A stretch of 54,773 nt of DNA. Origin: Sphingobium arseniciresistens (GTDB lineage Bacteria; Pseudomonadota; Alphaproteobacteria; Sphingomonadales; Sphingomonadaceae). A program made the translations under genes and the position numbers. Below the pieces are notes generated by a model. The model made no database searches. It was not told the origin of the DNA and saw nothing but the letters and a program-made list of their open reading frames with translations. Shown here piece after piece: positions 1,526-51,028 of the stretch. Numbering within the stretch: position 1 is the stretch's first letter; each line of letters opens with the position of its first letter. The stretch covers positions 1 through 54,773 of the forward strand of contig JARFNK010000032.1 in the NCBI GenBank assembly GCA_029167225.1. Reading direction: 5' to 3'.

Positions 1526-2231
1526 GGCGGACGCGTACTATGCCGCAGATTGATCGGTAGGTGTCAGCTTGACCCTGTCGGATGACTTCGCCGGAACCAT
1601 ATACTTCGCCCTATTCCATCAATTTTATGCTGTTCCGCTTTGCTCCATGTTAGTTCCCGAAGGCTTTCGAGGTATAGTTACCGACATGCGAGATCAGGTT
1701 TGTCGCAGGAGGGAGAAGCCATCGTTGCTATCCGGGGCATCCGCGAATATCAGGCCATAGCCGACATGCCGCGCGCCATGTTTTAGGTATAAGGGCGGTA
1801 AATGCGGTTCGTAGAATGTCTGCTTTACGACACCTGGACGTGGGCGAAACTCGTTCCATGATCGTTCGACGCTGCATCGACCTTGCCCTGTCAGATCAAC
1901 TTCCATGCCATTCATCCCGCGCGCATCATCAGGCCGCAAGTAGAGAGATTTCATCGTATTTTGATTAACAGTCCAGGAAATGCTGCTTTATCAGACGAGC
2001 GGCCAGTCCTGCCCGGAAAACCACCCTCTCCAACCCCAGCGTTTAAAAAGCCATCTCCAATTCTGTGTCAACAGCCCTCCCCAACAAGCACCTCACCTCA
2101 TTTTCGCCTCGCCAGCGGCATGAGTGAAGCAGCCGAGAGGACGGCCAAATCGGCTTCTATGCGATTAACAGGAGGCTCCTATTCTGGGCGATCATCTGGT
2201 AACAGCATGCGGAAATATCGGGGCTGTGCGA
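1526..2231. other. Gene-poor interval
   Basis: About 700 bases between the start of the diguanylate cyclase (minus) and the start of the metallopeptidase (plus). Short open frames exist on both strands, but none has recognisable sequence, a good ribosome-binding site or coding-like composition. Promoters for both divergent genes must lie here; I could not pick a convincing -35/-10 pair. Confidence 0.5.
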
Positions 2232-3407
2232 ATGGGCAATGACTGTCGGAAACTGGAACCTCTCCAATATCATAGCGACGTCGTCGCCTATCTCCGCCGG
2301 GAAGAACGGCATTCCTGGGAATGGTCCGCAACCGGCGCGCTCATGCAGGAGGCGGACGATATCCGTGACGCCATGTTGCGCGGGACCTACCGCCTGGAAG
2401 AGGGAAGCCATGCGCCGGCCTTCCAGGCCTGCCGGACCGCCATGTCGCGATTGGGCATCGAGGCACCGTTCACATTGTATCAGGCCCATGATGGCAGCAT
2501 GAACGCCTCCCTCATCTTCGTGCCGAATGAAATTCACCTCGTCTTCTTCGGCCCCATCCTCGAAAAGCTGGATCGGGACGAGTTGTTGGCGTTGATGGGA
2601 CACGAATTGTCGCATTACCTGCTGTGGTCCATGGGAGAGCAGGACCACTACCGGGCGAGCCGCGTATTCGACCACGCCCTGTCCTATCCGGGCGTCAAAC
2701 CCTCTCACCGTGAAACGGCCCGGCTCCTGAGCCTTCATACAGAGTTGTTCGCAGACCGCGGAGCGGCCCTTGCCGCAGGCAGTCCAGGACCGGCCGTCGC
2801 GGTCCTGGTGAAGGTCATGACCGGGCTCACCAGCGTCAACGCAGAGGCCTATCTGCGCCAGGCAGAGGAACTGGAGGCAAGCGAAGGCAAGTCGCAGGGC
2901 GTCTCGCATCCGGAAATTCACCTGCGCGCCCGTGCGCTTCAACTCTGGTGGGACAACGACCCCGAGCTTGCCGCCTGGCTTGAGGCACGCCTGCGCGGGC
3001 AGTTGTCGATCGAAGCGCTCGACTTACTGGGCCAGGAGAAGCTTACCGGGATCACCCGCGCCTTCCTCGCCCGCTTCCTGACCGAAATAGCACAAGCCGG
3101 CGATGAGATCGAAACGCAAGTACGGGCCGTCTTCCCCGATTTCGGGAAGCAGGAGGAGCCTCTCCTCAACCTCGCCGAAATAGGGATTGAGCGTATCGAC
3201 GATGCGACACGCGACTATTTCGTGGCGCTCATGTTCGATCTGGCCATGGCCGATCGCGATGCCACCGACGCCGTCATGCTCGCCGCAGCGAAGACAGCCG
3301 CCGAGATCGGAGCGACGGAACGGCTCACCGCCGCCCTCCGTCGCGATCTCAAATGGACCAAGACCCGCGCCGACAAGCTTTTGGCAGCGGCAGCGAAAGC
3401 CGCATGA
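2232..3407 (+). CDS. M48-family-like zinc metallopeptidase
   Basis: About 391 residues. The zinc-binding HExxH motif is seen as GHELSHYLLW around residue 132, and the third ligand region follows as HTELFADRGAA some 45 residues later, the layout of M48 (HtpX/Ste24/BepA-like) gluzincins. There is no signal peptide or membrane segment, so the protein is probably cytoplasmic, unlike HtpX. The C-terminal half is helical, with no motif I recognise, and may bind a partner. Start choice: an ATG at 2232 behind GGGG; an in-frame GTG at 2226 is the alternative. The stop overlaps the start of the large helicase gene as ATGA at 3404-3407, so the two are almost certainly co-translated and work together. 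Its substrate is unknown; in a defence setting it could be the effector or activator. Confidence 0.85.
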   Translation: MGNDCRKLEPLQYHSDVVAYLRREERHSWEWSATGALMQEADDIRDAMLRGTYRLEEGSHAPAFQACRTAMSRLGIEAPFTLYQAHDGSMNASLIFVPNEIHLVFFGPILEKLDRDELLALMGHELSHYLLWSMGEQDHYRASRVFDHALSYPGVKPSHRETARLLSLHTELFADRGAALAAGSPGPAVAVLVKVMTGLTSVNAEAYLRQAEELEASEGKSQGVSHPEIHLRARALQLWWDNDPELAAWLEARLRGQLSIEALDLLGQEKLTGITRAFLARFLTEIAQAGDEIETQVRAVFPDFGKQEEPLLNLAEIGIERIDDATRDYFVALMFDLAMADRDATDAVMLAAAKTAAEIGATERLTAALRRDLKWTKTRADKLLAAAAKAA

Positions 3408-6400
3408 CCATGGAGACACAGAACCAGGGCCCGCACCTGCGTCCCGTCGCGGCACGCACGCTTCGCACCTTCTTACGCGACGAGAAGCTATTGCCGCCCG
3501 ACGATCTCGTCCATGCCAGGCTGGGCCTGTGCCGGCAGGTCGCCGAGCTTCATGCTCACGGCCGTGTCGCCGACATCGGCCTCGATACGGTGGTCGAACT
3601 GGAGGATGGCCAGCTTGCCTTGAGCGATCCCGAGGGCATTCTTCCGAACGACAAACTGAAGGCCCTTCACGCCGTTCAGCCTCAGGTCTCCAGCGCACTC
3701 AAGGTCGTGGGCAGCTACCGGATCACGCAGGACGAGGGGCACGGCACCAGCATCGACGACCTGTCAGTGCTCGACGGGGATGAGGTGGAGGTTCGAAGCC
3801 CCGTCTACGTGACCCGCTTGCGAAACTGGGAAATATTGCTGGGCCATCACGACGAGATAACCGATGTCTTCCAGCTCGGCATGGTGATGGCATCGCTTGC
3901 TTGTGGCCTCGACCCGACAGAGTTCGATGACATCGAGCGCTTCTCGCTCAACCGAGACAATCTGTTCGCCATCGCTCCGCGCCTTCACCCGGTCATGGCC
4001 TCGCTTATTCTGGAGGCAACCGAACTCAACCGCCACCAACGGGCGACCGATGTTGCAGAATTGGCACGGCGCCTCGACACCTGGCGCGACCAGCCCGCCG
4101 GGATAGCGGTCGAGCGCGTCCTTGCCGATGCCAAGGGCCTCCCCGGCCGGCGCTCGGCGGTCCTCGCGCATCTGCGTGACCGCCTCTTCGATCTGTCGCG
4201 CCGTAACCGACTGATACATTTTCGCGCTACCCAGAGTTCAATCAATTTCACCGACGCCAGCATCCCCATCGTAATGCGCATCGAGAGCGTGCGGGCGGAT
4301 TCGCTGTGCACCTGGAAGGGGCCGTTCGCGCGCGAGCTGCTGTCCGGCAAGGCCGTACCATTGGGCCGCTGGCTGCGCTTTGAGGATCAGCCTCAAATAT
4401 CCTCCCAGATCGACCGGATCATCCAGGAGAACCGGCGTAACCGGAACGAATACGGCTTCTCCAGCCTGCGTCTGACGGTCGCGCACCTGCACTGGCACAA
4501 TCTCAAGGAATCCCCTGAAGAGCGCATCAGTTCGCCGTTGCTCTGGCTGCCGGTCGAAGTGGCGAAGCGCAAGGGCGTGCGCGATCAATATGTCATGACC
4601 TGTGAGGACCCGGTAGCAGAGTTCAACCCGGCACTTCGCCACATGCTGCGCCAGCTCTACGACATCGAACTTCCCGAAACGGTCGATCTGTCGGAAACAC
4701 CGATCGAGGCCATCCACGAGGCAATTCGTACGCAGATCCACGAGAGCGAGCCTGGCGTAAGGCTCGAACTCCAGGAGCGCCCCGCGATCCGCCTCATCCT
4801 GCAGCGCGCGGTGCAAGGGGTGAACCGCTTCAATCGACGCCGTACCGGGAAAAAGGAAAACATCAGCGCCAAAGCGGATTTCAACTATTCACGTGACGAC
4901 TATCGGCCCCTGGGGCTCGCGCTTTTCGAAAAGTTCGTCAAACCCGATGCGCTGCCGCAACGCCTCGCTGCCGGCGGCGGGCATTCGCCCAAGCGGGAGC
5001 TCATGGTCGCCGAAACGGAAGCGTCAGCCTATGGCAAGGCCGGCGGTGAAGGGCACAAATTTTCCTGGGAGGTCGATCTTACCCAGGTGACGCTCGCGAA
5101 TTTCAACTACAAGAAAATGTCTCTGGTGCGCGATTATAACGCCCTTATGGACACCCCCGAGACACAGCCGGCCTTCGACCAGGTTTTCTCGATCGAGCCT
5201 CGCCCCTTCATCGAGAATGTGCCGCCCCCCGCTCCCACCGACCAACAATGGAGCGTGGTTCCCTCCGATGCGACCCAGGACCGGGCGGTCGCCTTTGCCC
5301 GTACCGGTCGAAGTTACATCATCCAGGGACCGCCCGGGACCGGAAAATCACAGACCATCACCAACCTGATCGCCGACTTCACCGCGCAGGGTCAGCGTGT
5401 GCTGTTCGTTTGCGAGAAGCGCGCCGCGCTAGACGTGGTGTTCCACCGCCTGGGCCAGGCAGGCCTGGACGGCCTTGCGACAATCATCCACGATTCCCAG
5501 GAGGACAAGAAGGATTTCATCGCGGACCTGCGTGCTCAGTATGAGCAGTGGGGCCGGACTGCAGATGGGTACGCCGATGCGGAGGCCGCACGTGCGCAAA
5601 CTGTCGCGGCGCTTCAGGAGCATCTGCGGCAGATTGCGACCTTCGAGGCGGCGGTGGGCAACGACACGGCCGCAGGCGAGCCGCCCTTGCGCGATCTGGT
5701 TCGTCGCGCCGCGGCTTTGCCGCCCGTCCCGAGCGGCATTGGCCCCGCAGCGCGCGAGGCGCTGCCAAGCCTTGCTCTTTGGGATGGTCAGCGCTCCATG
5801 GCGACACGGGTGTTTCACGCCATGCACGAGATCGTCGGTGCGAACAGCCTCGCCGAACATCCCTTCGCGCGTCTCGGCGGTGATCTCCTGCGTGCAGCGA
5901 GGCCTTATGCCGTGCTGGAAGCCTCCATTGGTGGCGCCGATGCGCATTTTCAGTCCATCGACCCGTTGCTGGAGGATGAGGCCGTGTCGGTGTCCGGCAC
6001 GACGGCCCTCGCCGATGCGCAGGCGATTGCCATGCTTGCCGAGCAATTGGTGAAAGCCGGCGTCGCCCATATGCCCAGCCTCCTCGATCCGCTTTCAGCG
6101 GACTCCATCGCGCTGGACGCGGACCTTGCAGCGATCACCGCGCTCGAAACGGCCCGGGACGTCGCAGCCAATGAGGCCCGGGGATGGCGCTCGCCGCTCG
6201 ATCCTGGCGATACTGCCGCCGCGCTGGAGTTCGCACGGGCCAGAGAAGGGTCGATCTTCGCCATATTCAGCGGCGCCTGGCGCAGCCTCAAGAGGTCGGT
6301 GGAAGACCGATATGACTTCGTCTCCCATGCGGTAAAGCCAAAGCTGGTCGCCGTCCTGGAGGCACTTTCCACGCTTCAAGCGGCAGAGGTCAAGCTGGCG

Positions 6401-8905
6401 ACCACCCGCACAGCACTGGATCAGCGGCTGGGGATCTCGGACGTGCCCGCACTGCTTGCGACACGACGCCAACTTGCCGACGCTCCGGCTGGCAGCGCTA
6501 TAGCCATGACCATCGCGCTGGCGAAATCGCCGGATGGCCCCCGGATTATCGGCCGCATCGCCCAATATTCCGCCCCCATGTCCGGGCTCCTGGTGATGCT
6601 CGGCGCTATCCTGGACGACCCCGGCCTGCTCACGGTCGATGAAGCCGGGGAGTTGCTCCGCGACCTTCGCGAAAATCTGGACGATTTGCCCGATCTTCTT
6701 CCGCACCTGGCTGAGGTCCATGCTGCGCCGCCTGCCGTCACCGCCATGCTCACCAGCCTGCCTTTGTCCCTCGCCGCGATCGATGCCCTGATCGTGGACG
6801 AGGCTATCGCCGCCCGAGAACGAACGAACCCCGATATTCGCCGGTTTGACATCGATCGCATGGTCGCGATCTCTCGGAGGGCCGCTGCCGCGCGCGAGAT
6901 GCTACGCGATCACAACTCCTCGACCATCCGGGCAAGGCGCCACCGCCAGTTCCGCGATAATGTGAAACGCTCGGAAACCTCGGTCCAACAACTCGACACC
7001 AACGGGCGCGTGTTCAAAAAGACCTATGCGACCGGTCGCCGCGAGCTCGAGCATGAATTCGGGAAATCAATGCGCTACCGGTCGATCCGTGAACTGGCGA
7101 GCGGCGAGAGCGGGCGCGTCCTCAATGACCTTAAGCCTATATGGCTGATGAGCCCGCTCTCGGTCTCGGACACGTTGCCACTCGATCCAGGTCTATTCGA
7201 CGTTGTGATTTTCGATGAGGCGAGCCAGATTCCGACCGAGGACGCGGTGCCCGCCCTCTGCCGTTCGCGCCAGGTCGTGATCGTCGGCGACGAAATGCAA
7301 CTCCCGCCCACGAGTTTCTTCTCCGCCGGGCAATCGGATGACGAGATGGAAGTGGCCGCCGAAGAAGACGGTGAGCGGATCGCCATCGTTCTCGACGCGG
7401 ACAGCCTGCTCAGCCAGTCCGCCCGAAACCTGCCGGCAACCTTGCTAGCCTGGCACTATCGCAGCCGATCCGAGGCGCTGATCAGCTTTTCGAACGCCGC
7501 TTTCTATGCAGGTGAACTCGTCACCATCCCTGATCGCACCTTGCGCATCCGGCATGACGACAGCGCGCCAGTTCCCTCTGACAGCGAAGCAGCCTGGGCC
7601 GCCGGCGCCGACCGCCTGCTTGCTGCCCCCATCACCACCCATCGCATGGCAGACGGTCTCTACGAACGCCGGGCGAACCTTTCCGAGGCACGCTATATCG
7701 CCGGACTGGTGCGGGAATTGCTCGCCCGCGGAACGGGCCAGAGCATCGGCATCGTCGCCTTTTCCGAGGCACAGCAAGCCGAGATCGAAGACGCGCTGGA
7801 ACGGCTCGCGGCCGACGACGAGGCCTTTTCCGGCGCCCTCACCCGCGAGGTGGAACGGGAGGAAGATGGCCAGTTCGTCGGCCTGTTCGTCAAGAACCTC
7901 GAAAATGTGCAAGGCGACGAGCGCGACATCATCCTGATGAGCGTGTGCTATGCGCCCGGCCGCGACGGGCGAATGGCCATGAATTTCGGGCCGATCAACC
8001 AACGAGGCGGCGAAAAGCGGCTCAACGTGATCTTCAGCCGCGCCAAGCGCCACATGGCGATCATATCCACCATCGCGCCCGAGGCGATCACCAACATTCA
8101 CAATGACGGCGCGCGCGCGTTGCGCAGCTTCCTGGCGTTCGCGCAGGCGCAGTCGATGGGCTTGCACGACAACGCGCAAGCCGTGCTCGCCACGCTCAAT
8201 CCCGACGCCGCACGGACCTTCGATAGCATCCTTCCGCCCGATCCGGTGCGCAGCGCCATCGCGCAGGCTCTGCGCGCCAAAGGCCACGACGTGCACGAAC
8301 ATGTCGGCGGGGCCAGCTTCCGGTGCGACCTTGCGATCGTCGATCCCGCCGGCGGCAGCTATGTGCTGGGCATTCTGCTCGATCGGGCCGACAAGGTCGG
8401 CCTCGCGGTCGAGGAACGATACGTCTTCCGGCCGAACATTTTGCGCTCCTTCGGCTGGCGGGTGATCGATGTGCCGGTCACCAGCTGGCTGCGCGCCCGT
8501 GGACCGGTGATCGAGCGCATCGAGCAGGAGCTTCAGCGTTCAAGCTGGGATCTGGCAAATGCCGACCCGATGAGCGGCACCGGCCTTTCCCCCATAGCTA
8601 CCGGGCCGTCTGCGAACGACGCTGCCGCGGACAACCACGCCGATAACGCCGTTCAGGCATCCTCAACCGGAAGCGAAGCCAAGCGAGCGGACCCCGGCAT
8701 GACAGAATATCGACTCGTTGCCGGTGCTTCGAGCAAGTTCTGGCGGGTTGGCATCGACGGCGCCGACCTCATCGTCGAATTCGGCCGTATTGGAACCGGC
8801 GGCCAGCGTGTGGTGAAGAGCTTCGAGGATGCCGATCGCGCCCGCCGTGAAGCGAACAAGCTCACGCTCGAAAAGACCCGCAAGGGCTATGAGGAGTTCG
8901 GTTGA
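3404..8905 (+). CDS. Giant multidomain SF1 helicase: kinase-like, DUF4011, nuclease-like, WGR
   Basis: About 1833 residues, starting at the ATG that overlaps the peptidase stop (the frame is open 17 codons further upstream). Residues ~10-235 resemble a protein kinase fold without catalytic residues: ELHAHGRVADIGLD in place of HRD, LSDPEG in place of DFG, then a DVFQLGMVMASL helix. Residues ~250-500 are DUF4011-like, opening with LFDLSRRNRLIHFR. The SF1 core has Walker A GPPGTGKS (~642), Walker B VVIFDEASQIP (~1266) and late motifs QGDERDIILMS and NVIFSRAKRH (~1500-1555). Residues ~1610-1712 look like the MTES_1575/Vsr-type endonuclease fold, with DLAIVDP and LRSFGWRVIDV but a weak catalytic centre. 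The last ~70 residues form a WGR domain (FWRV...FGRIGTGGQ). Helicases of this COG1112 type recur in anti-phage systems. The product is likely cytoplasmic and acts on nucleic acid. Confidence 0.88.
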   Translation: MTMETQNQGPHLRPVAARTLRTFLRDEKLLPPDDLVHARLGLCRQVAELHAHGRVADIGLDTVVELEDGQLALSDPEGILPNDKLKALHAVQPQVSSALKVVGSYRITQDEGHGTSIDDLSVLDGDEVEVRSPVYVTRLRNWEILLGHHDEITDVFQLGMVMASLACGLDPTEFDDIERFSLNRDNLFAIAPRLHPVMASLILEATELNRHQRATDVAELARRLDTWRDQPAGIAVERVLADAKGLPGRRSAVLAHLRDRLFDLSRRNRLIHFRATQSSINFTDASIPIVMRIESVRADSLCTWKGPFARELLSGKAVPLGRWLRFEDQPQISSQIDRIIQENRRNRNEYGFSSLRLTVAHLHWHNLKESPEERISSPLLWLPVEVAKRKGVRDQYVMTCEDPVAEFNPALRHMLRQLYDIELPETVDLSETPIEAIHEAIRTQIHESEPGVRLELQERPAIRLILQRAVQGVNRFNRRRTGKKENISAKADFNYSRDDYRPLGLALFEKFVKPDALPQRLAAGGGHSPKRELMVAETEASAYGKAGGEGHKFSWEVDLTQVTLANFNYKKMSLVRDYNALMDTPETQPAFDQVFSIEPRPFIENVPPPAPTDQQWSVVPSDATQDRAVAFARTGRSYIIQGPPGTGKSQTITNLIADFTAQGQRVLFVCEKRAALDVVFHRLGQAGLDGLATIIHDSQEDKKDFIADLRAQYEQWGRTADGYADAEAARAQTVAALQEHLRQIATFEAAVGNDTAAGEPPLRDLVRRAAALPPVPSGIGPAAREALPSLALWDGQRSMATRVFHAMHEIVGANSLAEHPFARLGGDLLRAARPYAVLEASIGGADAHFQSIDPLLEDEAVSVSGTTALADAQAIAMLAEQLVKAGVAHMPSLLDPLSADSIALDADLAAITALETARDVAANEARGWRSPLDPGDTAAALEFARAREGSIFAIFSGAWRSLKRSVEDRYDFVSHAVKPKLVAVLEALSTLQAAEVKLATTRTALDQRLGISDVPALLATRRQLADAPAGSAIAMTIALAKSPDGPRIIGRIAQYSAPMSGLLVMLGAILDDPGLLTVDEAGELLRDLRENLDDLPDLLPHLAEVHAAPPAVTAMLTSLPLSLAAIDALIVDEAIAARERTNPDIRRFDIDRMVAISRRAAAAREMLRDHNSSTIRARRHRQFRDNVKRSETSVQQLDTNGRVFKKTYATGRRELEHEFGKSMRYRSIRELASGESGRVLNDLKPIWLMSPLSVSDTLPLDPGLFDVVIFDEASQIPTEDAVPALCRSRQVVIVGDEMQLPPTSFFSAGQSDDEMEVAAEEDGERIAIVLDADSLLSQSARNLPATLLAWHYRSRSEALISFSNAAFYAGELVTIPDRTLRIRHDDSAPVPSDSEAAWAAGADRLLAAPITTHRMADGLYERRANLSEARYIAGLVRELLARGTGQSIGIVAFSEAQQAEIEDALERLAADDEAFSGALTREVEREEDGQFVGLFVKNLENVQGDERDIILMSVCYAPGRDGRMAMNFGPINQRGGEKRLNVIFSRAKRHMAIISTIAPEAITNIHNDGARALRSFLAFAQAQSMGLHDNAQAVLATLNPDAARTFDSILPPDPVRSAIAQALRAKGHDVHEHVGGASFRCDLAIVDPAGGSYVLGILLDRADKVGLAVEERYVFRPNILRSFGWRVIDVPVTSWLRARGPVIERIEQELQRSSWDLANADPMSGTGLSPIATGPSANDAAADNHADNAVQASSTGSEAKRADPGMTEYRLVAGASSKFWRVGIDGADLIVEFGRIGTGGQRVVKSFEDADRARREANKLTLEKTRKGYEEFG

Positions 8906-8921
8906 GCGGATCGATGGGGCC

Positions 8922-10751
8922 TTACGCTCCGGCATTCAGATATTTGAACAAGGGCGGATTGATCGTGCAATTTTCGATCATCTTCGAAAGGTGCAGCACC
9001 GCCTGATCGATATCGCTGCCGCCCATCGCAATCAGCGTGGCGATCGCCGCATTGGCGATGATCTTCGAACGCATCCCGTCTTCTCCGGTCGACAGGTAGG
9101 TCGCGGCGGACTGTGCCACCTTCGACAGGCTGTCGATGGCGCGCGAGCGATCGGGCATCAATGCCACAAGCCAGGTAGCGCCGCGCAGGAACTCCTCATT
9201 CTCGATGCTGACCCTCATCCAGGTGGATATGCTTTCATAGGTCGCACGGCCGTCACCCTGTTTGTAATGCGGCCTGGCAAGGCCAAGGACGCCATCGGTG
9301 ACCCGTGTGTTCTTGTAGACATGATCATCGGTGCGGATCAGTTGCGTATGCAACGCCTTGCCAAGGGCATGGGAACGCTGGCTCGCAATAACCATCGCAA
9401 CGGCTCTTCCCAGCGCGCGCACCTCTCGGCCGTGACGTGAAGGCCAGTCGGGATGCGTCTCTTCGAGATCGCCCACTGTCGCTGCGAAGCGTTCACCGTT
9501 GCAGATATCGGTATAGACTGTCCGGTCGAGCGTCGGCGTATGGAACAGCGCCAACCAGTCATGCAGCCGCGCTTCCACCACCTCGATGCCGATCGGCCGG
9601 CACAGCGCAACTATCTCCTTTTGCCAGGTGGCGGTTGCCCTGGTGGCTCGGCGCTGCGTTATCATCTGTTCGACCAGCGCCGTCCAGTCGGGGTTCTCAA
9701 GATCTGCGAGCACATCCAGTCCGGGGATCTGGTCGCTCTTCCAGTTGAAGCGCGAATGTGGCTGTGCCAGCGCGATCGTATCGGGCAGGCGGCGATAGGC
9801 CTCCGCCTCGGCGAAGCCGGCCCGCTTGCCGTTATGCTGGCTAAGCGCAGCAAAGGGCTTGCCCCCCTCCTCCCACACCCCAAAATGCGGCACGACCTCA
9901 CCGACCGCTGGCCAGGCAGCAGCAAAGGCGGCGGGATCGCGCATCCAGGCCGGGTTGCGGCTCGTTTTGCTGCCGTCGCGGATTTCCTCTAGCGCGATGG
10001 TCGTTTCCGCCAGAAGGTCCGCCCAGAACCGGGCATTGGGCCTCAGCCCCGGAGCCAGAGCCCAGGGATTGTCCGCACCCTCGCAGCGCTGCATCAGCAA
10101 TTCCGTCGAACTCACCTCGGCGCCGGCCAGTTTTTCCAGCTTCTCGGCCCGGCCTATCATCTTCTTCGTGTCCGCCTTGCGGTAGGAGCGGCGCGCGCCG
10201 CGAATTTCCGCTGCCATTCCGACCAGGGCCTCGCAATCGCCGCTCGACAAATAGGCCCCCTGGCGGATGGCGCTATCGATCAGCTTGAGGAGCGTATCGA
10301 ATGTAGGCTGGTTGTAGCGCTCCTTGCGCAGCCGGTCATTCGACAGCAACAGGATCAAAAGCGCGGGGAGATGCTCAGGCCGTACCTCTACCTCGAGCCC
10401 GAAGACCGTGTAATGCGCGTTATAGGCAGCCTTTTCACGCAGTGATTTGCCATCGGCATAGCCGTCGAAGATGCCGGGCTGATGCGCGAGGTCGGCCAGT
10501 AATTCGCCCCGTTCCTCGGCGGAAAGGTCGGCCATGGCAGCGGACCGGGCATAGAGCTGACTATGACCCAACTTGCCAAGGTCCCTTTCCGCTTCAAGCC
10601 GCGCGGCAAAGCGATCGAATGGTGAACTGCCGTAGCTGCTGTCTCGACGGCCGAAAATTCGCGGCGGCGTCTGCGGCGCGGCATCCGCACCCACCTTGCG
10701 GCCGAAGCCTAGTCGCTGCAGCCCCTTGCGACCAAAATTGCCGAACGCCAT
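8922..10751 (-). CDS. Uncharacterised 609-residue helical protein
   Basis: I do not recognise this family. The N-terminus is basic and glycine-rich (GNFGRKGLQRLGFGRK), possibly disordered or nucleic-acid binding. Most of the rest reads as amphipathic helices, including LPALLILLLSNDRLRKERY, with a HEAT-like or DUF4132-like flavour. No nuclease, ATPase or protease motif is visible, nor any signal peptide or membrane helix. A good ribosome-binding site (GGGAGGT, five bases before ATG) fixes the start. The gene converges on the helicase gene with only 16 bases between stops. The PIN gene lies upstream on the same strand, 135 bases away across two hairpins. WGR proteins and DUF4132 proteins often occur together, which would fit the helicase partner, but the DUF4132 link is only an impression. 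Confidence 0.75.
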   Translation of the reverse strand: MAFGNFGRKGLQRLGFGRKVGADAAPQTPPRIFGRRDSSYGSSPFDRFAARLEAERDLGKLGHSQLYARSAAMADLSAEERGELLADLAHQPGIFDGYADGKSLREKAAYNAHYTVFGLEVEVRPEHLPALLILLLSNDRLRKERYNQPTFDTLLKLIDSAIRQGAYLSSGDCEALVGMAAEIRGARRSYRKADTKKMIGRAEKLEKLAGAEVSSTELLMQRCEGADNPWALAPGLRPNARFWADLLAETTIALEEIRDGSKTSRNPAWMRDPAAFAAAWPAVGEVVPHFGVWEEGGKPFAALSQHNGKRAGFAEAEAYRRLPDTIALAQPHSRFNWKSDQIPGLDVLADLENPDWTALVEQMITQRRATRATATWQKEIVALCRPIGIEVVEARLHDWLALFHTPTLDRTVYTDICNGERFAATVGDLEETHPDWPSRHGREVRALGRAVAMVIASQRSHALGKALHTQLIRTDDHVYKNTRVTDGVLGLARPHYKQGDGRATYESISTWMRVSIENEEFLRGATWLVALMPDRSRAIDSLSKVAQSAATYLSTGEDGMRSKIIANAAIATLIAMGGSDIDQAVLHLSKMIENCTINPPLFKYLNAGA

Positions 10752-10886: not shown

Positions 10887-11954
10887 TCACTTGTAATTGT
10901 CGGGTGGATATAAGGTTACATATTGGAAATTGGCGCTCCTGAACCGCAGCCCGTCGATCTCTTCAATCTCGCCATCACCATCAACCGAGAGGCTAAGCGC
11001 GATATCGATCGACAACTCGATCTCCGTCTCCCCGCTGACGGTGTCGTACGGAATGGCGATCTTGTCTTCGGAATCCCACATCGCCTCGTCCCAGTTGGGG
11101 TGGGTGTAGGAAATGGTGGCACGCACGCCAGCCTTGGCGATGGCAAGGATCGACCCACCCTCGGCCAGCGGCTTGAACGCCGTGACCTTGCTTACTTCGA
11201 CGCCTTCGACCACGATATCGTCGATCTCGGTGTCCATCACATCATCGCTCTGGAGGCCCCAGCTTGTCAGTTCGTCATTGATCAGACCAACCAGTGCCTC
11301 ATTCTGCCCATCGAGGAAGGCATCGATCTCGGGGGCAGCCATCTCTAGCCCAAGCGCCTCGAACAGCGCCGGCAGGGATTTAACGAGTGAGATATGCTCC
11401 GCGTCTTTGACCGGCCCTGCAAAATCCCCATCGGCGGACACGATAATCACCGGCGTCTTCTTCGACGCAATCTGCTTGAGGCATTCGAACAGAAAGGCGT
11501 CGGGGAACTGGTCCTTCTTCCCTTCGCCCAAAAAGAACCCGGTTTTCTGGGAGTAGGCATCGAGTACGGCCGACGGCTTCACATCATCGACTTTCAGCGT
11601 CTGTGCGCAGAGAGCCTTGAACATCGCCAGTGTCTGGGCCTCGTAGCGCTCCTTCAGGACGGTGCGCAACTCGCCGTTTTTCATGGAGGGTAGCTTCGCG
11701 CCCGTCGCGGCCGCGACAATGTCACGGAAATGGGGCTGGCAGATCGAACGGATCAGATCGAAGTCATTCTGCGCGTGCTTCTTCGCGACCTCGGTGATGG
11801 TGAGATCGGTGGTCAGCATGCGGACCAGGCCAGCGTCTACCAGGTCCTTGACGCGATCCAGTTCCGGTCCACCCGGTGGCTTACCCGCGGCAATCACGAT
11901 GTTTGCGTCGAGAAATATGTGGGGTGATTTCTTGGGCTTCGTCATTTCGTTCAC
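10887..11954 (-). CDS. PIN-domain ribonuclease-like protein
   Basis: 355 residues from a GTG start; an ATG three codons in is an alternative start, and neither has a clear ribosome-binding site. Residues ~11-195 follow the PIN nuclease plan with four spaced acids: FLDANIVIA, a Glu in TITEVAKKH, an Asp in DQFPDAFLFE and the late pair in VSADGDFAGP. These would bind two metal ions and cleave RNA. The pattern is closest to the large-PIN/DUF4935 group rather than VapC, which is about 130 residues. Residues ~200-355 form an extra domain rich in acidic and beta-prone stretches that I do not recognise. No antitoxin-sized gene is adjacent, which argues against a simple VapBC pair. It lies upstream of the 609-aa gene and may belong to the same module. 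Confidence 0.78.
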   Translation of the reverse strand: MNEMTKPKKSPHIFLDANIVIAAGKPPGGPELDRVKDLVDAGLVRMLTTDLTITEVAKKHAQNDFDLIRSICQPHFRDIVAAATGAKLPSMKNGELRTVLKERYEAQTLAMFKALCAQTLKVDDVKPSAVLDAYSQKTGFFLGEGKKDQFPDAFLFECLKQIASKKTPVIIVSADGDFAGPVKDAEHISLVKSLPALFEALGLEMAAPEIDAFLDGQNEALVGLINDELTSWGLQSDDVMDTEIDDIVVEGVEVSKVTAFKPLAEGGSILAIAKAGVRATISYTHPNWDEAMWDSEDKIAIPYDTVSGETEIELSIDIALSLSVDGDGEIEEIDGLRFRSANFQYVTLYPPDNYK

Positions 11955-12175: not shown

Positions 12176-12787
12176 TCAGTTAACGGTAGCGCTTTCCGGC
12201 ACGGTCGGCGCAGCATGCGGCGCCATCTTTTCGGCTCCCATCTTCTCGAGCGTTTCCGCGTCGACCAGACGAGTCACGATCGGGTGCAGGCGCAGGCTGC
12301 CTTCCTTCACGACCTGCTTGAAATTGGCGATGACGTTGGCGGTGGTCCGCTGATCGGGCGCGACGACGTCGAGCAGCCAGTTGATGTCGCCCGAATTCCA
12401 GTCCTCGGCCTTGAGGCGCACGGGGAAAGTGCCTGCCTGGATCTGCTCGCGAATGCGCGCGTCGGCCTCTTTGCTGACGCTCGCCCAGATCGCGAGACCC
12501 GCCATGTCGGCAAGGGGACCGGCCTTTTCGCCGCCGGGATAGGCGATCGCCACGCGATCGCGCATCAGCGGCTCGAGGACGAGATGCTGGAGGTCGGCGA
12601 GCGTCTGATTGCGGTAGCGCGGCAACATCATCAGCGCCATGACGACCTTGCCGAAGCTCTCCCGGATGTGCGTGCGCACCGCAGAGATTTTCGCCGCGAT
12701 CTCCGGGTCGATGCCGGTCGATGGCGCTGACGCTTCGACTGCGTCCAGTTGCGATTCGTTCGCAGATCCGTTCAACTTCTTTGCCAC
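12176..12787 (-). CDS. RTX toxin-activating lysine acyltransferase (HlyC family)
   Basis: 203 residues. HlyC-type enzymes move a fatty acyl group from acyl carrier protein to lysines of a pro-RTX protein in the cytoplasm. The family core is plain: IWASVSKEADAR (~100), then LKAEDWNSGDINWLLDVVAP (~125-144), matching the HlyC segment EDWTSGD...WFIDWIAP and its catalytic Asp. The segment LPRYRNQTLAD (~55) aligns with HlyC SPLHRNWPVS, but the catalytic His is Tyr58 here, so activity or mechanism may differ. The protein is longer than HlyC (170 aa), with an extended N-terminus. The start is GTG, with AGGAGG seven bases upstream. The gene is divergent from the giant RTX gene cluster, whose product is the natural substrate. 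Confidence 0.85.
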   Translation of the reverse strand: MAKKLNGSANESQLDAVEASAPSTGIDPEIAAKISAVRTHIRESFGKVVMALMMLPRYRNQTLADLQHLVLEPLMRDRVAIAYPGGEKAGPLADMAGLAIWASVSKEADARIREQIQAGTFPVRLKAEDWNSGDINWLLDVVAPDQRTTANVIANFKQVVKEGSLRLHPIVTRLVDAETLEKMGAEKMAPHAAPTVPESATVN

Positions 12788-13118: not shown

Positions 13119-13481
13119 GTGAAGGGGGAGTGTTTAAGGGGGTGTGTGATCGCTTACGATAATGCCTTGACCAAGCTACTCGGCACGCGGCCTCGGCCCT
13201 GCCTGGCAATGACCTTGGCTCTCAGTGCAGTCGTCGATCGCGAAATCGCCGAGCACCGCTGCTCGAAGTGGTTCACCAAGGCGCTGAAGTGGAGCGAGGA
13301 AGCCGATCCTCTGGTAATCGACCTCGACGACGACGGTATCGAGACGATCAGCCTGTCCAACAGCAAGGCCTATTTCGATGTGGATGGCGATCTCTTCGCC
13401 GAACGCACAGAGCGTGGCTTGGCCAAGCTGGCGGCTGATGAAAATTTTTATAACGCGCAGTTTGCGTGGGAGGCAGCCTAA
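13119..13481 (+). pseudogene. Truncated RTX gene remnant (duplicate of the EF-hand-like segment)
   Basis: A 120-codon frame whose middle, FTKALKW to DLFAERT (13272-13409), matches residues ~780-826 of the giant RTX protein (DNA 16572-16709). By hand alignment 38 of 46 residues are identical, including IDLDxDGIET and KAYFDVDGDLFAERT. The preceding 50 codons and the following 24 (ending NFYNAQFAWEAA) have no counterpart in the giant protein. It therefore looks like an internally deleted remnant of a second RTX gene that kept a calcium-loop piece and its own 3' end. The frame is still open and its TAA shares a base with the ATG of the next gene. A small functional peptide cannot be excluded. Confidence 0.65.
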
Positions 13482-14230
13482 TGGTTTGGGGAATGAGCAT
13501 ACCTTCGAGTTTTGGCGATTATTGGCCGGAGGGCGACTTTGAAAGCCTCGACCCGCATGGCAAAGGCGGTTGGCGCGATCGTCTCAACCGCTATTATCAG
13601 AGTCAATCGCCAGAACTTCAGAGGGCTTTGTACGACTATACCCAAGGTGGCGATATAGCCAGCTACCCCATCTATGTTACTTCCAAATTTTATCAGGAAC
13701 TTGGCGTAAGGCCTACCGAATTTCCCGAATTGGCCCCGCTCAACTCAATCAAAGATCATGAACCACCACAATGCTATATCACCGCCAAAAGCTATAAGTC
13801 GCTTGCTTCGCTAATTTCGTTAGGCGGCTTGCTGGCGGTCGATGAAATGATGAAGTCAATCATCGAACGGCTCGAGCCGGGTATTCACCAGTTCTTCCCC
13901 ATCGAAATTAGGATGCCGCGCGGCAACCCATATCCCAAGCAATATCATATCCTGGTCGTCGGGCAGTATATTGACGCTTTCTCGCCGGAGAAGAGCAAAA
14001 AAGGGGCGTATCGCTCCTATGAGCCGGAATATCCTGGCTACTATACGCTGATCGACTCGAAAAAGGAGATATCCGGCCTTGCATTCTCAAAGACTGCATT
14101 TGGCCGCGCACATTTATGGCGTGAACGTGCCCTGAATGGCAAGCTTACCTGTTTATCAGACCAGCTTGAAGCGGAAGCCGTCAAAGTTGGCCTTCGACTT
14201 CCCAAACATTATCGCATGACGGAGGTCTGA
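13481..14230 (+). CDS. Imm11/DUF1629-like putative immunity protein
   Basis: 249 residues, started at the ATG that shares its A with the preceding TAA stop; GGGAGG sits seven bases upstream. The C-terminal half, with HQFFPIEIRMP, YHILVVGQYIDAFSPEKS, FGRAHLWRER and a closing SDQLEAEAVKVGLRLP, resembles the Imm11 (DUF1629) family found beside polymorphic toxins. This is a pattern-level call, not an alignment. There is no signal peptide. Base composition is visibly less GC-rich than in the flanking genes, suggesting transfer. It lies between the RTX remnant and the giant RTX gene, two bases before the latter's start, so it should be co-transcribed with it. It may protect against a toxin domain lost from the remnant or carried by the giant protein. 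Confidence 0.6.
   Translation: MVWGMSIPSSFGDYWPEGDFESLDPHGKGGWRDRLNRYYQSQSPELQRALYDYTQGGDIASYPIYVTSKFYQELGVRPTEFPELAPLNSIKDHEPPQCYITAKSYKSLASLISLGGLLAVDEMMKSIIERLEPGIHQFFPIEIRMPRGNPYPKQYHILVVGQYIDAFSPEKSKKGAYRSYEPEYPGYYTLIDSKKEISGLAFSKTAFGRAHLWRERALNGKLTCLSDQLEAEAVKVGLRLPKHYRMTEV
14221..14225 (+). promoter_or_regulatory. Ribosome-binding site of the giant RTX gene
   Basis: GGAGG lies inside the last codons of the Imm11-like gene and seven bases before ATG 14233. It fixes the giant gene's start and implies translational coupling between the two genes. Confidence 0.7.
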
Positions 14231-47156: not shown

Positions 47157-48842
47157 ATGGCGCGCTTCCGCTACCGGTATGTCGGCCGCCTTGCCGTGAC
47201 GGCATCGGCCTTGTTCCTGACAGGCAATGCCCAGGCCCAGGCTCCTTCGCAACGCCTGAACAAAGCGCATGATGCCTATCCAACCCCGCGCATTGCCTTT
47301 GACGAAGAACCTGTGCCGCCGCCTGCCGACGATAGCCTCTCGGCAGCTATAGCGGACAGCTTTACATCCAATCCAGGGCTAGGCGCGCGCCGCTACGATT
47401 TGCGGGCAACCGACGACGAGGTCGGCATAGCGATGTCCCAGACGCGTCCGTCGGCACAGTTGCAACTGTCCGGTGGCTATGAACTGACATTGCCCGGCGC
47501 GATCACACAAGCGAACCGCCCCCTCTCGGACCGCCTCAACGACCCGAATATCGAGCGTAACGATCTCGCCTCCCAATTTGTCATAGACCAGCCGATTTAC
47601 ACGGGAGGCCGTGCATCAAGTGCCTTGCGTGCGGCCCTTGCCGGCAGCGCAGCGGGAAGGGAAACCTTGCGCGGGGCGGAGGGTGATTTGCTCGTCGATC
47701 TGATCGCGGCCTATACCGATGTGCGCCGCGATGGCCGCTCGCTTGCCATCCGGCAACGCAATCTACGAACTCTGGAAGCTACCCTCGACGAAATCGTCGC
47801 GCGGCGCGACGCCGGTGAACTTACCAGAACCGACATTGCGCAGGCTGAGACACAAGTGCAGGCAGCACGTGTGCAGCTCAACGCCGCCGAAACCCAGCTG
47901 GAATCGAGCCGCGCGGCGTTCACGGCCATTGTCGGCCGCGAGCCCGGCAACCTCGCGCAAGAGCCGGGGCTGCCGGATTTACCTCACACGGCTGACGAAG
48001 CCTTCGCGATGGCCGAAGCGAGTAACCCGGACCTTGCTGCCGCCATCGCGACCGCCCGCGCCTCGCAGGAAAGGATCGCCGCCGCGCAAGCGGAAGGCCG
48101 TCCCGAACTATCGATCAGAGGTACGGCGGGCACGACCGGTCCGGCCGCGCATTTCGACCGCTCCGATCAGGACGTCACTTTTACCGGACGCGCTACCCTG
48201 ACGATCCCTCTGTTCGCGGGGGGGCGCGTCCGCTCGGCCGTTGCCCAGGCTCGCAATCGCCAGACCGCCGATACGCTTCGTATCGAAGCAACCCGGCGGC
48301 AACTGGTCCAGGCGATCGTCAATGCCTGGAATCAGTGGGTAACGGCTGATCGAAATGCATTGGCGCAGGATTTGCAGGTTCAGGCGGCCCGCATTTACTA
48401 TGAGGGCACGCTGGAGGAGTATCGCGAGGGGCTGCGGTCCACATTCGACGTACTCTACGCGCAGAATTCGCTCAATGAGACGCAGATTGCCCTGCTTGGC
48501 AGCAAGCGTGACCGCTATGTCGCGCAAGCCATCCTGCTGCGTCATCTGGGCCAACTTGAAACGAAGCGGCTGCTCGCCAGCCCACCCGTTTATGCGCCGG
48601 ACGATTATCTTGAAAAAGTCGAGCGGCGCAGCGCCGTCCCCTGGGGCGGCGTCATTCGCGCGATTGACAGGCTCGGCGCTCCGGTCGGCAGGCCTCGCGC
48701 CCCTGAGATGCCGGAACCGCAGGCAAGCGCCCTTCCCGCGGCAGCTTCGCCCGCCCGGGTCCCCCAAGACCTCATGCGCGGTGGACCGACTCCTTCAGAA
48801 ACCCGCTCTCCTTCAACCGCCACCCCGAGAACCAAGCAATGA
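47157..48842 (+). CDS. TolC-family outer-membrane channel of the type I secretion system
   Basis: 561 residues. The N-terminus MARFRYRYVGRLAVTASALF...NAQAQA is a Sec signal peptide with likely cleavage after AQA. The mature protein follows the two-fold TolC plan: helical coiled-coil halves beginning LSAAIADSFTSNPGLGARRYD and AFAMAEASNPDLAAAIATAR, with strand-forming segments FVIDQPIYTGGRASSALRAA and LTIPLFAGGRVRSAVAQARN. It would form the trimeric channel through the outer membrane for the HlyB/HlyD-like pair. A C-terminal tail of about 90 residues, rich in Pro, Ala and Ser, is longer than in E. coli TolC. It is the first gene of the export operon; its stop overlaps the next start as ATGA. 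Confidence 0.93.
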   Translation: MARFRYRYVGRLAVTASALFLTGNAQAQAPSQRLNKAHDAYPTPRIAFDEEPVPPPADDSLSAAIADSFTSNPGLGARRYDLRATDDEVGIAMSQTRPSAQLQLSGGYELTLPGAITQANRPLSDRLNDPNIERNDLASQFVIDQPIYTGGRASSALRAALAGSAAGRETLRGAEGDLLVDLIAAYTDVRRDGRSLAIRQRNLRTLEATLDEIVARRDAGELTRTDIAQAETQVQAARVQLNAAETQLESSRAAFTAIVGREPGNLAQEPGLPDLPHTADEAFAMAEASNPDLAAAIATARASQERIAAAQAEGRPELSIRGTAGTTGPAAHFDRSDQDVTFTGRATLTIPLFAGGRVRSAVAQARNRQTADTLRIEATRRQLVQAIVNAWNQWVTADRNALAQDLQVQAARIYYEGTLEEYREGLRSTFDVLYAQNSLNETQIALLGSKRDRYVAQAILLRHLGQLETKRLLASPPVYAPDDYLEKVERRSAVPWGGVIRAIDRLGAPVGRPRAPEMPEPQASALPAAASPARVPQDLMRGGPTPSETRSPSTATPRTKQ

Positions 48843-51028
48843 TCCCCGACCAGACGACTGAAACTTCAGCCGAGACGGCGGGACAGGACGATTCCGGACT
48901 GATCGCCTATGCAACGCTCCTTGCGCTTCACCGCATCGCGGTGGACCCGGCACAGCTGCGCCATAGCCTTGGCCATGACCGCGGGGTAGACGCCGACGAT
49001 CTCAAGCGCATTGCCAAACGCCAGGATGACGTCCGCGCCAAATCCGTCCGTTCAAGCTACGACAAGCTGCCGCAAACGCCCCTTCCCGCGCTAGCCAACG
49101 GCCCGTCAGGATGGTTCATCATTGCCAGGGTCAGTGACGATGAAGCCCTGATCCAGCCGCCCTGCCACAGTTCGGAAGGCGTCCAGCCCCAGATCATGAA
49201 GGTCGACAGGGCGGCGCTCGAAGCCATGTGGTCGGGCGAACTTCTGCTGGTAACAACCCGTGAAGGCATTGGCGGCGTCACGCGCGCGTTCGACGTTTCC
49301 TGGTTTATCCCCCAGATCGTCAAATATCGTCGTCTGATCGGCGAGGTGCTGCTGGTGACGCTCGGCATCAACCTTCTGGGGCTCGCTTCACCGTTATTCT
49401 TCCAGAATGTCATCGACAAGGTGCTTGTCCACAATACGCTCGATACGCTCACGATCCTGGTAATCGGCTTTGGCGTCGTATCGGTGTGGGAAACTCTTTT
49501 CGGGTGGCTGCGCACGCGGCTCTATTCGGAAACCAGCCAGAAAATCGACGTCGAGCTGGGCGCCAAGCTGTTCCGTCACCTGCTTGGCCTTAACCTCGCC
49601 TATTTCGAGGCGCGGCGAGTCGGTGACATCGCCATGCGGGTACGACAACTCGAAACGATCCGCGAGTTCCTTACGAACTCGTCGCTGACCGTGCTGATCG
49701 ATCCGCTCTTCACGATCGTCTTCCTTGTGGTGATGTGGTTCTATTCCACTCAGCTCTTCCTGATCTCGATCCTGGCGATCCCGGCCTATGTCGCAGTCGC
49801 TGTTTTCGTCACGGGTCCCCTGCGCGCGCGTATCGAGGAAAAGTTCGAGCGCGCAGCGGCCAACAACGCGCTGCTCATCGAAAGCATCGGCGGCATCCAG
49901 ACCGTCAAGGCCGGCGCGGTCGAGCCGCAATGGCAGGATCGGTGGGAACGCCAACTCGCCGGCTACAGCTTCGCCAGCCAGAAGGTCATCAATCTCGGCA
50001 ACACCGGCAGCCAGCTGATCCAGCTTATCTCCAAGATCAACATGGTGCTGATCCTCTATTTTGGCGCCAGAGCGGTGATCGACAAGGACCTGACCGTGGG
50101 CGGCCTCGTCGCGTTCAACATGTTCGCCCAGCGCGTATCGGGCCCGGTGATCCGCATGGCGCAGCTATGGCAGGATTTCCAACAGGTGCGGATCGCGATC
50201 GAACGCCTGGGCGACGTGCTCAACCAGCCGGTGGAACCTGGTACCGGTAGCCGCGTCGCCCTCCCCTCGCTCAAGGGCGAGGTCAAGTTCGAGGGCGTCA
50301 AGTTCCGCTATGGCCTCGATGGACCCTGGACGCTCGAAGACATCGACCTCACGGTCGCGGCGGGCACCTCGCTGGGCATCGTCGGCTCCTCGGGCTCAGG
50401 CAAGTCGACGCTGACCAAGCTGCTTCAACGCATGTATGTGCCCGCCGCGGGGCGTGTCCTGATCGACGGTGTCGATATTGCCCAGATCGACCCGGCATGG
50501 TTGCGGCGGCAGATCGGCGTCGTCCTCCAGGAAAACCTTCTGTTCAACCGTTCGATTCGCGAGAATATCGCGCTCGCCAATCCGGCTCTGCCGCTCGAAA
50601 AGGTGATGGCGGCGGCGGAACTTGCCGGCGCGCACGAGTTCATCGTGCGGCTGCCGCAAGGCTATGACACGCCGGTCGAAGAGCGCGGCACCAACCTGTC
50701 CGGCGGCCAACGTCAGCGCCTCGCCATTGCCCGCGCACTGGTGACGGGACCGCGTATTCTCATTCTGGACGAAGCGACCAGCGCACTCGATGCCGAAAGC
50801 GAGGAGATCATTCAGAAGAACCTCAAGGCGATCTCCGCCGGCCGTACGGTGATCATCATCGCGCACCGCCTCTCTGCCGTACGGCAATGCGATAATCTTA
50901 TCTCGCTGGAAGCCGGCCATATCGTGGAACGCGGTAGCCATGAGGAATTGTTGCGCGAAAATGGGCGCTATGCGGATCTCCATCGACGGCAGAGCGGCGC
51001 AGCTTTTGCGCAAGGTGCCGAGGCATGA
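48839..51028 (+). CDS. HlyB-like type I secretion ABC transporter with inactive C39-like domain
   Basis: 729 residues. Residues ~15-135 form a C39-like domain in which the catalytic Cys position is Ser (DSGLIAYATLL) and the His region reads SGWFIIARV without His, so it binds rather than cuts substrate, as in HlyB. Residues ~150-430 hold the membrane segments. The ATPase shows Walker A GSSGSGKST (~517), signature LSGGQRQRLAIARAL (~621) and Walker B ILILDEATSALD (~640), then an H-loop in IIAHRLSAV. It powers export of the RTX protein straight from cytoplasm to exterior. It overlaps both operon neighbours by ATGA. A dead C39 domain matches a substrate with an uncleaved C-terminal signal such as the giant RTX protein. 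Confidence 0.95.
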   Translation: MIPDQTTETSAETAGQDDSGLIAYATLLALHRIAVDPAQLRHSLGHDRGVDADDLKRIAKRQDDVRAKSVRSSYDKLPQTPLPALANGPSGWFIIARVSDDEALIQPPCHSSEGVQPQIMKVDRAALEAMWSGELLLVTTREGIGGVTRAFDVSWFIPQIVKYRRLIGEVLLVTLGINLLGLASPLFFQNVIDKVLVHNTLDTLTILVIGFGVVSVWETLFGWLRTRLYSETSQKIDVELGAKLFRHLLGLNLAYFEARRVGDIAMRVRQLETIREFLTNSSLTVLIDPLFTIVFLVVMWFYSTQLFLISILAIPAYVAVAVFVTGPLRARIEEKFERAAANNALLIESIGGIQTVKAGAVEPQWQDRWERQLAGYSFASQKVINLGNTGSQLIQLISKINMVLILYFGARAVIDKDLTVGGLVAFNMFAQRVSGPVIRMAQLWQDFQQVRIAIERLGDVLNQPVEPGTGSRVALPSLKGEVKFEGVKFRYGLDGPWTLEDIDLTVAAGTSLGIVGSSGSGKSTLTKLLQRMYVPAAGRVLIDGVDIAQIDPAWLRRQIGVVLQENLLFNRSIRENIALANPALPLEKVMAAAELAGAHEFIVRLPQGYDTPVEERGTNLSGGQRQRLAIARALVTGPRILILDEATSALDAESEEIIQKNLKAISAGRTVIIIAHRLSAVRQCDNLISLEAGHIVERGSHEELLRENGRYADLHRRQSGAAFAQGAEA

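Follow-up and report, generated by a model that had tools for sequence, protein, structure and literature searches.

Helicase-nuclease immune proteins are generally held to end in DNA cutting. Hhe (PADLOC PDLC02194) is a DUF4011 domain-containing anti-phage protein, whose definition we take to be the domain order DUF4011, SF1 motors and MTES_1575, while Mokosh MkoA carries an active Ser/Thr kinase domain. SPRTN and Wss1 are DNA-protein crosslink proteases that cooperate with helicases in eukaryotes. Shango (PMC10250203) is a three-gene set of TerB, ATPase and DEAD/DEAH helicase, and a predicted M48-family peptidase gene is present in the E. coli RRDM phage-defence island, together with a type I R-M system and DarTG (PMC12255303). 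In the window (the whole stretch of DNA that was analysed, 54,773 nucleotides), we found an M48-type zinc peptidase gene overlapping the gene of a DUF4011 helicase (Table 1).

Table 1. Positions of the gene pair, its domains and motifs, and the adjoining convergent gene in the window.
Feature	Position	Strand	Details
M48-type zinc peptidase gene	2226..3407	+	393 aa from GTG 2226; alternative start ATG 2232
Peptidase catalytic domain			aa ~14-255
Peptidase helical C-terminal domain			aa ~260-393
HELSH zinc-binding motif	2601..2615	+	aa 126-130; third ligand E173, then D177
ATGA stop/start overlap of peptidase and helicase genes	3404..3407	+	read from the sequence
Helicase gene	3404..8905	+	1833 aa; pseudokinase C-lobe, DUF4011, SF1 helicase, MTES_1575 nuclease-like, WGR
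Pseudokinase C-lobe, without N-lobe	3437..4096	+	aa 12-231; structure searches, motif table
DUF4011	4181..4648	+	aa 260-415; Pfam 52.1 bits, cut-off 22.2
RecA-like motor 1, Walker A GPPGTGKS	5255..5563	+	aa 618-720; AAA_11
RecA-like motor 2, DEAS Walker B	7016..8173	+	aa 1205-1590; AAA_12
MTES_1575 (PD-(D/E)xK-type) nuclease-like domain	8255..8533	+	aa 1618-1710; Pfam 48.7 bits; without catalytic acid
WGR domain	8717..8896	+	aa 1772-1831; Pfam 55.4 bits
Convergent 609-aa protein without known domain	8922..10751	-	adjoins the pair in 9/47 loci, all 9 alphaproteobacterial by record title

A sequence-only reading of this DNA had proposed that an M48-like peptidase with a HELSH motif is joined through ATGA to an 1833-residue helicase with five recognisable regions, and the sequence together with Pfam matches confirmed this layout. 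The window peptidase matches Pfam PF01435 with 31.9 bits, above the gathering score of 20.3, and all 40 peptidase rows match it at E ≤ 0.1. Moreover, HExxH, the downstream Glu ligand and the Asp (ExxxD) of M48 peptidases are conserved in 52 of 52 aligned rows, and the window protein has the M48 fold, its structural match to SPRTN/Wss1-type (SprT-like) proteases being weaker than that to M48 peptidases. Two peptidase alignments were used, A4 with 40 rows, covering 39 of the 47 loci described below, and A5 with 32 rows (31 loci). A TerB domain, first read by eye in the standalone peptidase, was rejected, as Pfam TerB matched only 1 of the 40 rows (E 0.011). Given this weak match, and since a structure search with aa 260-390 of the peptidase returned no clear match, we claim TerB solely for a fused relative, L086.

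Relatives of the pair were sought in 84,980 species genomes using an alignment of five peptidases and two peptide patterns, a search that is not exhaustive. The two-pattern scan matched 93 stretches, 47 of them encoding a peptidase relative, and each of these 47 loci has the helicase downstream of the peptidase, in the same orientation. By their record titles they belong to Alpha-, Beta- and Gammaproteobacteria, Planctomycetes and Lentisphaerales. With script-chosen starts, of which that of L048 is ambiguous, the two genes overlap by 4-13 nt in 34 loci (20 by 4, 13 by 13 and 1 by 8) and are separated by 2-61 nt in nine, so that 43 of the 47 either overlap or lie at most 61 nt apart. In three planctomycete pairs (L049, L052 and L053) other genes separate the peptidase from the helicase, by 7.5-9.0 kb; the intervening block is similar in all three and consists of unrelated-looking genes (P450-like and dehydrogenase-like by eye), with the helicase on the same strand. 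Among the 296 genomes of the source order, the pseudokinase part of the helicase and the peptidase occur in the identical five, and DUF4011 in general occurs in 34. None of 20 unlinked DUF4011 loci (out of 29, in stretches of 16-18 kb) encodes a peptidase relative at E ≤ 1e-3; one ORF flanking the unlinked locus L137 holds an HExxH motif, yet matches no peptidase relative. In a search of the phylum, 13 of 398 passed E ≤ 0.001, and in nine of them the match is short and partial (E 1.8e-4 to 8.0e-4); from this search G000, G591, G656 and the fusion G476 were used further, and the collections overlap, as L012 is G284 and L018 is G124. A chance pairing is ruled out by the 47/47 linkage and the identical occurrence in 5/296 genomes. 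The neighbourhood survey that the sequence-only reading had named as a check on the pairing thus bore it out, through the linkage at all 47 loci, the shared five genomes and a natural fusion of the two genes. We regard it as nearly certain that the two genes are one unit.

Both proteins keep their main motifs. All 47 linked helicase rows carry Walker A and the DEAS Walker B, while the WGR domain is missing from the Variovorax rows; for this alignment the truncated helicases L016, L049, L051, L052 and L053 were excluded, L086 was split into peptidase and helicase parts, and the uncertain start of L048 was trimmed. By sequence, the helicase motifs and the peptidase zinc site are intact and under strong purifying selection, with dN/dS values over six pairs of 0.015-0.044 for helicase motor 2 and 0.02-0.08 for the peptidase domain. 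The kinase catalytic Asp appears in just 2 of 32 rows of the motif table, and judged by structure searches and motifs the kinase part is a C-lobe-only pseudokinase.

The nuclease-like domain separates linked from unlinked helicases. In the unlinked DUF4011 helicases of the source order it follows the pattern ..IDLG..GIECDG..YH.., in which the catalytic residues are those we take to correspond to the PD-(D/E)xK family pattern. All 20 unlinked helicases retain the Glu of ExDG, which is the (D/E)xK acid, and 0 of 47 linked ones do, with Leu, Val, Ile or Met in its place in every row (16 linked rows were aligned jointly with the 20 unlinked helicases and the rest were read in the same column of the linked alignment). 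The first Asp is retained in 45 of the 47 linked helicases, and YH in 18 of the 20 unlinked ones. These counts speak against the earlier assumption of a working nuclease. The missing acid is a strong sign, short of proof, of a dead nuclease; with dN/dS of 0.03-0.14 (six pairs), the domain is still constrained despite its loss. Because the acid is lost while the domain remains constrained, we read it as a putative binding module kept after cutting was lost.

The history of the helicase is less uniform. A tree of motor 2 with 53 rows, from which near-identical rows were left out, gathers every linked helicase except L086 into a single group (93/97), and places L086 with L139 on long branches. 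When L139, L129 and some other rows are omitted, the smaller tree has one branch (100/98) that divides 15 linked rows, L086 among them, from 18 unlinked ones. A single linked branch that includes L086 therefore depends on omitting L139 and L129, and the grouping of L086 with L139 when both are included makes it possible that the M48 link arose twice. L139 is an unlinked helicase from the genus of the window, with a Pkinase domain (58.9 bits) ahead of DUF4011 and with the nuclease Glu kept; its kinase-DUF4011 fusion suggests where the pseudokinase may have come from. We also observed that this kinase-DUF4011-helicase-nuclease fusion (L139:6774-13154, + strand), which has an AAA_2 ATPase gene of the Cdc48/Clp type upstream and no M48 gene, is possibly a further uncatalogued variant.

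The natural fusion is found in G476, of the same phylum and another class, where peptidase and helicase are joined in a single 2073-aa ORF (L086) with the order M48-TerB-DUF4011-helicase-MTES. Its Pfam matches are M48 at 22.7 bits (cut-off 20.3), TerB at 26.1 (24.4), DUF4011 at 32.1 (22.2) and AAA_11/12, with MTES_1575 at 31.9 bits, under its cut-off of 38.2. The same stretch also encodes GajA (2e-185), GajB (3.5e-182), AbiEi and AbiEii, with E values ranging from 2e-108 to 2e-185, so that L086 adjoins the defence genes of a Gabija/AbiE island.

Apart from the fusion, the pair mostly lies among ordinary chromosomal genes, unlike the R-M-rich surroundings of the unlinked DUF4011 helicases. The PADLOC scan (E ≤ 1e-10) took in 130 ORFs flanking 31 linked loci, at most two before and three after the pair, a set that excludes nine copies of the 609-aa gene, ORFs above 1000 aa and all Variovorax loci except L045. 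The linked flanks matched 45 PADLOC families, none in more than two ORFs, versus 175 families in 85 ORFs around 20 unlinked DUF4011 loci, with type I methyltransferases in front, in as many as 4 ORFs, along with specificity subunits; as PADLOC models overlap widely, families are not to be equated with genes. Strong single matches in the linked flanks were MTase_II (a type II methyltransferase, 2.9e-93) and mad3 (2.5e-39), followed by CARF5 (7.8e-33) and a PtuA-type ATPase (1.1e-30), and a TnsB-type transposase model was matched by a single ORF (6.8e-27). Among the 25 commonest of the 150 Pfam families in these flanks, MFS transporters, M20 peptidases, response regulators and epimerases lead. 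By eye, phage-tail-sheath-like and lysozyme-like ORFs lie directly upstream of the pair in one locus (L009:368-2956, - strand).

The pair is patchy, occurring in 5 of 296 genomes of the source order, 7 of 149 of the genus of G591 and 14 of 61 of the genus of G656. Neither the 72,556 plasmid records nor the 50,697 phage records searched contain the peptidase, and scanning IMG/VR for close relatives of it gave none; helicase matches on 415 plasmid records were at best below 60% identity, with none covering 80%. The 14 Pseudomonas copies (13 plus L087, from G591, whose helicase nests among theirs) have helicases of 78-98% identity; compared over 3 kb per side, their surroundings fall into 12 upstream and 13 downstream contexts. 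By eye, DNA similarity begins about 115-140 nt ahead of the peptidase and runs out at most about 100 nt from the helicase stop codon, sooner in some rows. The many contexts and the ends of similarity close to the gene pair make the two genes the moving unit in Pseudomonas. These cassettes (L020-L031, L034 and L087) have rather sharp ends and a common leader, TAGGTATGCTCCGC, mostly preceded by TTTCACAAGTA, and many rows show a hairpin-like end. An empty-site search in Pseudomonas with joined L022 flanks matched 93 of 99 genomes, mostly one-sidedly on the chemotaxis-receptor flank, with no junction-spanning row among the matches listed. In Variovorax (12 copies plus L088), the downstream context is shared by 13 of 13 and the upstream one by 12 of 13, a fixed site like that of an inherited chromosomal gene. 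Eleven alphaproteobacterial loci have 10 upstream contexts, and the downstream side common to eight of them is the convergent 609-aa gene. One copy, L089 (G752, genus of G591), is decayed: its peptidase match is broken in two and its helicase match spreads over more than one frame, which indicates that the pair is dispensable.

Of the 296 order genomes, 4 have strong matches to the 609-aa gene, and all four belong to the five that carry the pair; the matches in three further ones are weak and partial. The protein matched nothing in Pfam, PADLOC or NCBIfam (E ≤ 0.1), nor in the PDB with a four-row profile. It is probably a third gene of the system in part of the alphaproteobacteria. The PIN-domain gene at 10887-11954 was rejected as a member, since none of the 47 loci gave a match to it. 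Further along the window, a single 10,749-aa ORF rich in cadherin-like/RTX-type repeats (14233-46482, +) is followed by outer-membrane-factor-, ABC-transporter- and membrane-fusion-type genes (47157-52419, +), which we read by eye as a secreted adhesin-like protein with a type I exporter. An HlyC-type acyltransferase gene (12176-12787, -; PF02794, 38.5 bits) lies upstream of the giant ORF and an Imm11-type gene (13466-14230, +; PF07791, 49.2 bits) directly upstream of it.

A dead-looking nuclease next to a conserved, linked protease suggests that the protease cuts instead. We therefore propose, with only slightly less than even confidence, an effector swap with a role in conflict, in which sensing and movement would fall to the helicase and the M48 peptidase would serve as effector in place of the dead nuclease. 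The two translationally coupled proteins would form a complex in the cytosol, where the WGR and nuclease-like domains would offer surfaces for binding nucleic acid and the SF1 motor would engage aberrant DNA or RNA, most likely invading. ATP-driven movement could then be relayed via the DUF4011 and pseudokinase parts so that the M48 active site is exposed, and the exposed peptidase would cleave host or phage proteins and halt infection. We infer complex formation, trigger, substrate and phage defence, and of the proposal as a whole the substrate and the trigger are the most speculative parts. The fuller version, a nucleic-acid-triggered proteolytic immunity in which a helicase with a dead nuclease licenses a cytosolic M48 protease and which in Pseudomonas is borne by a two-gene cassette that inserts at many sites of the chromosome, we put forward tentatively, as somewhat less probable than its opposite. 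If true, one and the same sensing motor could be coupled to the cleavage of proteins, not of DNA.

The conflict role itself may be supported by the homologous helicases catalogued as anti-phage and by the fusion in the Gabija/AbiE island. Against a plain defence reading stand the flanks outside the fusion, where a few strong single matches but no defence island are seen, the lack of copies on the plasmid and phage records searched and the fixed Variovorax site. The idea of an undescribed conflict system, raised by the sequence-only reading, therefore holds for a conserved unit that reaches no NCBIfam defence cut-off, and is weakened in its conflict role by these mostly ordinary neighbourhoods and by the plasmid and phage records searched. 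Because the usual copies lie outside recognisable defence islands, the best rival, although unlikely, is repair: the helicase would track damaged DNA and the zinc peptidase remove proteins stuck there, in the manner of SPRTN/Wss1. The WGR domain, which is a DNA-binding domain of PARP-type proteins, would suit such a role, and if this rival is right the pair is instead a bacterial helicase-protease machine clearing DNA-stuck proteins. We also give a low probability to a regulatory peptidase, one that cleaves either the helicase or a repressor when infection or stress sets in, with the helicase itself blocking phage DNA. Zinc peptidases of the ImmA/IrrE and CapP kinds do act as regulators in this way, but the 45 largest clusters among flanking ORFs of at least 100 aa offered no conspicuous repressor-like gene: besides the 609-aa gene, the families that recurred in more than one genus group were common paralogues. 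In L086, peptidase and helicase are a single protein. A chromosomal stress or housekeeping system without a conflict role, patchy through repeated loss, would fit the mostly ordinary neighbours, the lack of plasmid or phage copies and the fixed Variovorax site, but is quite improbable considering the 14 Pseudomonas copies in 12-13 places, with similarity bounded close to the gene pair, and the decayed, hence dispensable, L089.

The pair stands close to several known systems. The closest helicase models are ProA (NCBIfam NF058533; E 8e-202, 673.4 bits against a cut-off of 1500; best stretch aa 554-1724 of the helicase) and the PADLOC candidate PDC-S37 (E 2.8e-193, 643.2 bits; best stretch aa 553-1726, covering 216-1353 of 1550 model positions, in two stretches), and neither brings a match to the peptidase. 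Hhe shares the DUF4011 helicase and the MTES-type end (PADLOC E 1.1e-88), with DUF4011, SF1 motors and MTES_1575 in the same order in the window helicase, which scores 443.5 bits with Hhe's NCBIfam model NF042953 against a cut-off of 2000. The window helicase differs from Hhe by its kinase C-lobe ahead of DUF4011 and its coupled M48 gene, and by the nuclease acid, which all 47 linked helicases have lost. The search of defence collections agreed with the view that the pair is not a catalogued system, as no NCBIfam defence model reaches its cut-off and PADLOC matches the helicase alone, with no model for the peptidase. Open-licence PMC full text, a scope that leaves subscription papers and preprints outside, holds no description of an M48/DUF4011-helicase pairing that we could find, mentions DUF4011 in three papers but never together with WGR, and yielded no paper on ProA.

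Mokosh MkoA resembles the window helicase as an SF1 helicase with a kinase-type region (PADLOC E 1.1e-37), but the match covers just aa 1264-1555 (motor 2), and the window pair has an inactive C-lobe, with the catalytic Asp in so few rows, and a zinc peptidase partner. Shango likewise combines a helicase with a TerB-type domain, and TerB passes its cut-off in the fused L086; Shango's helicase is, however, of the DEAD/DEAH type, its genes are three, and TerB in window-type peptidases is a weak match in a single row. The RRDM M48 gene has other partners, type I R-M and DarTG, and DUF4011 does not appear in the text of PMC12255303. SPRTN and Wss1 are alike in being zinc peptidases that act with helicases on DNA, and we know of no DUF4011 helicase that accompanies them. 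We count the pair as new because the NCBIfam cut-offs are missed, PADLOC has no peptidase model for it and the literature searched does not describe it. The helicase family is already known and catalogued as anti-phage (PDC-S37, Hhe, ProA); what is new is its coupling to an M48 peptidase in a pair whose nuclease acid has been lost.
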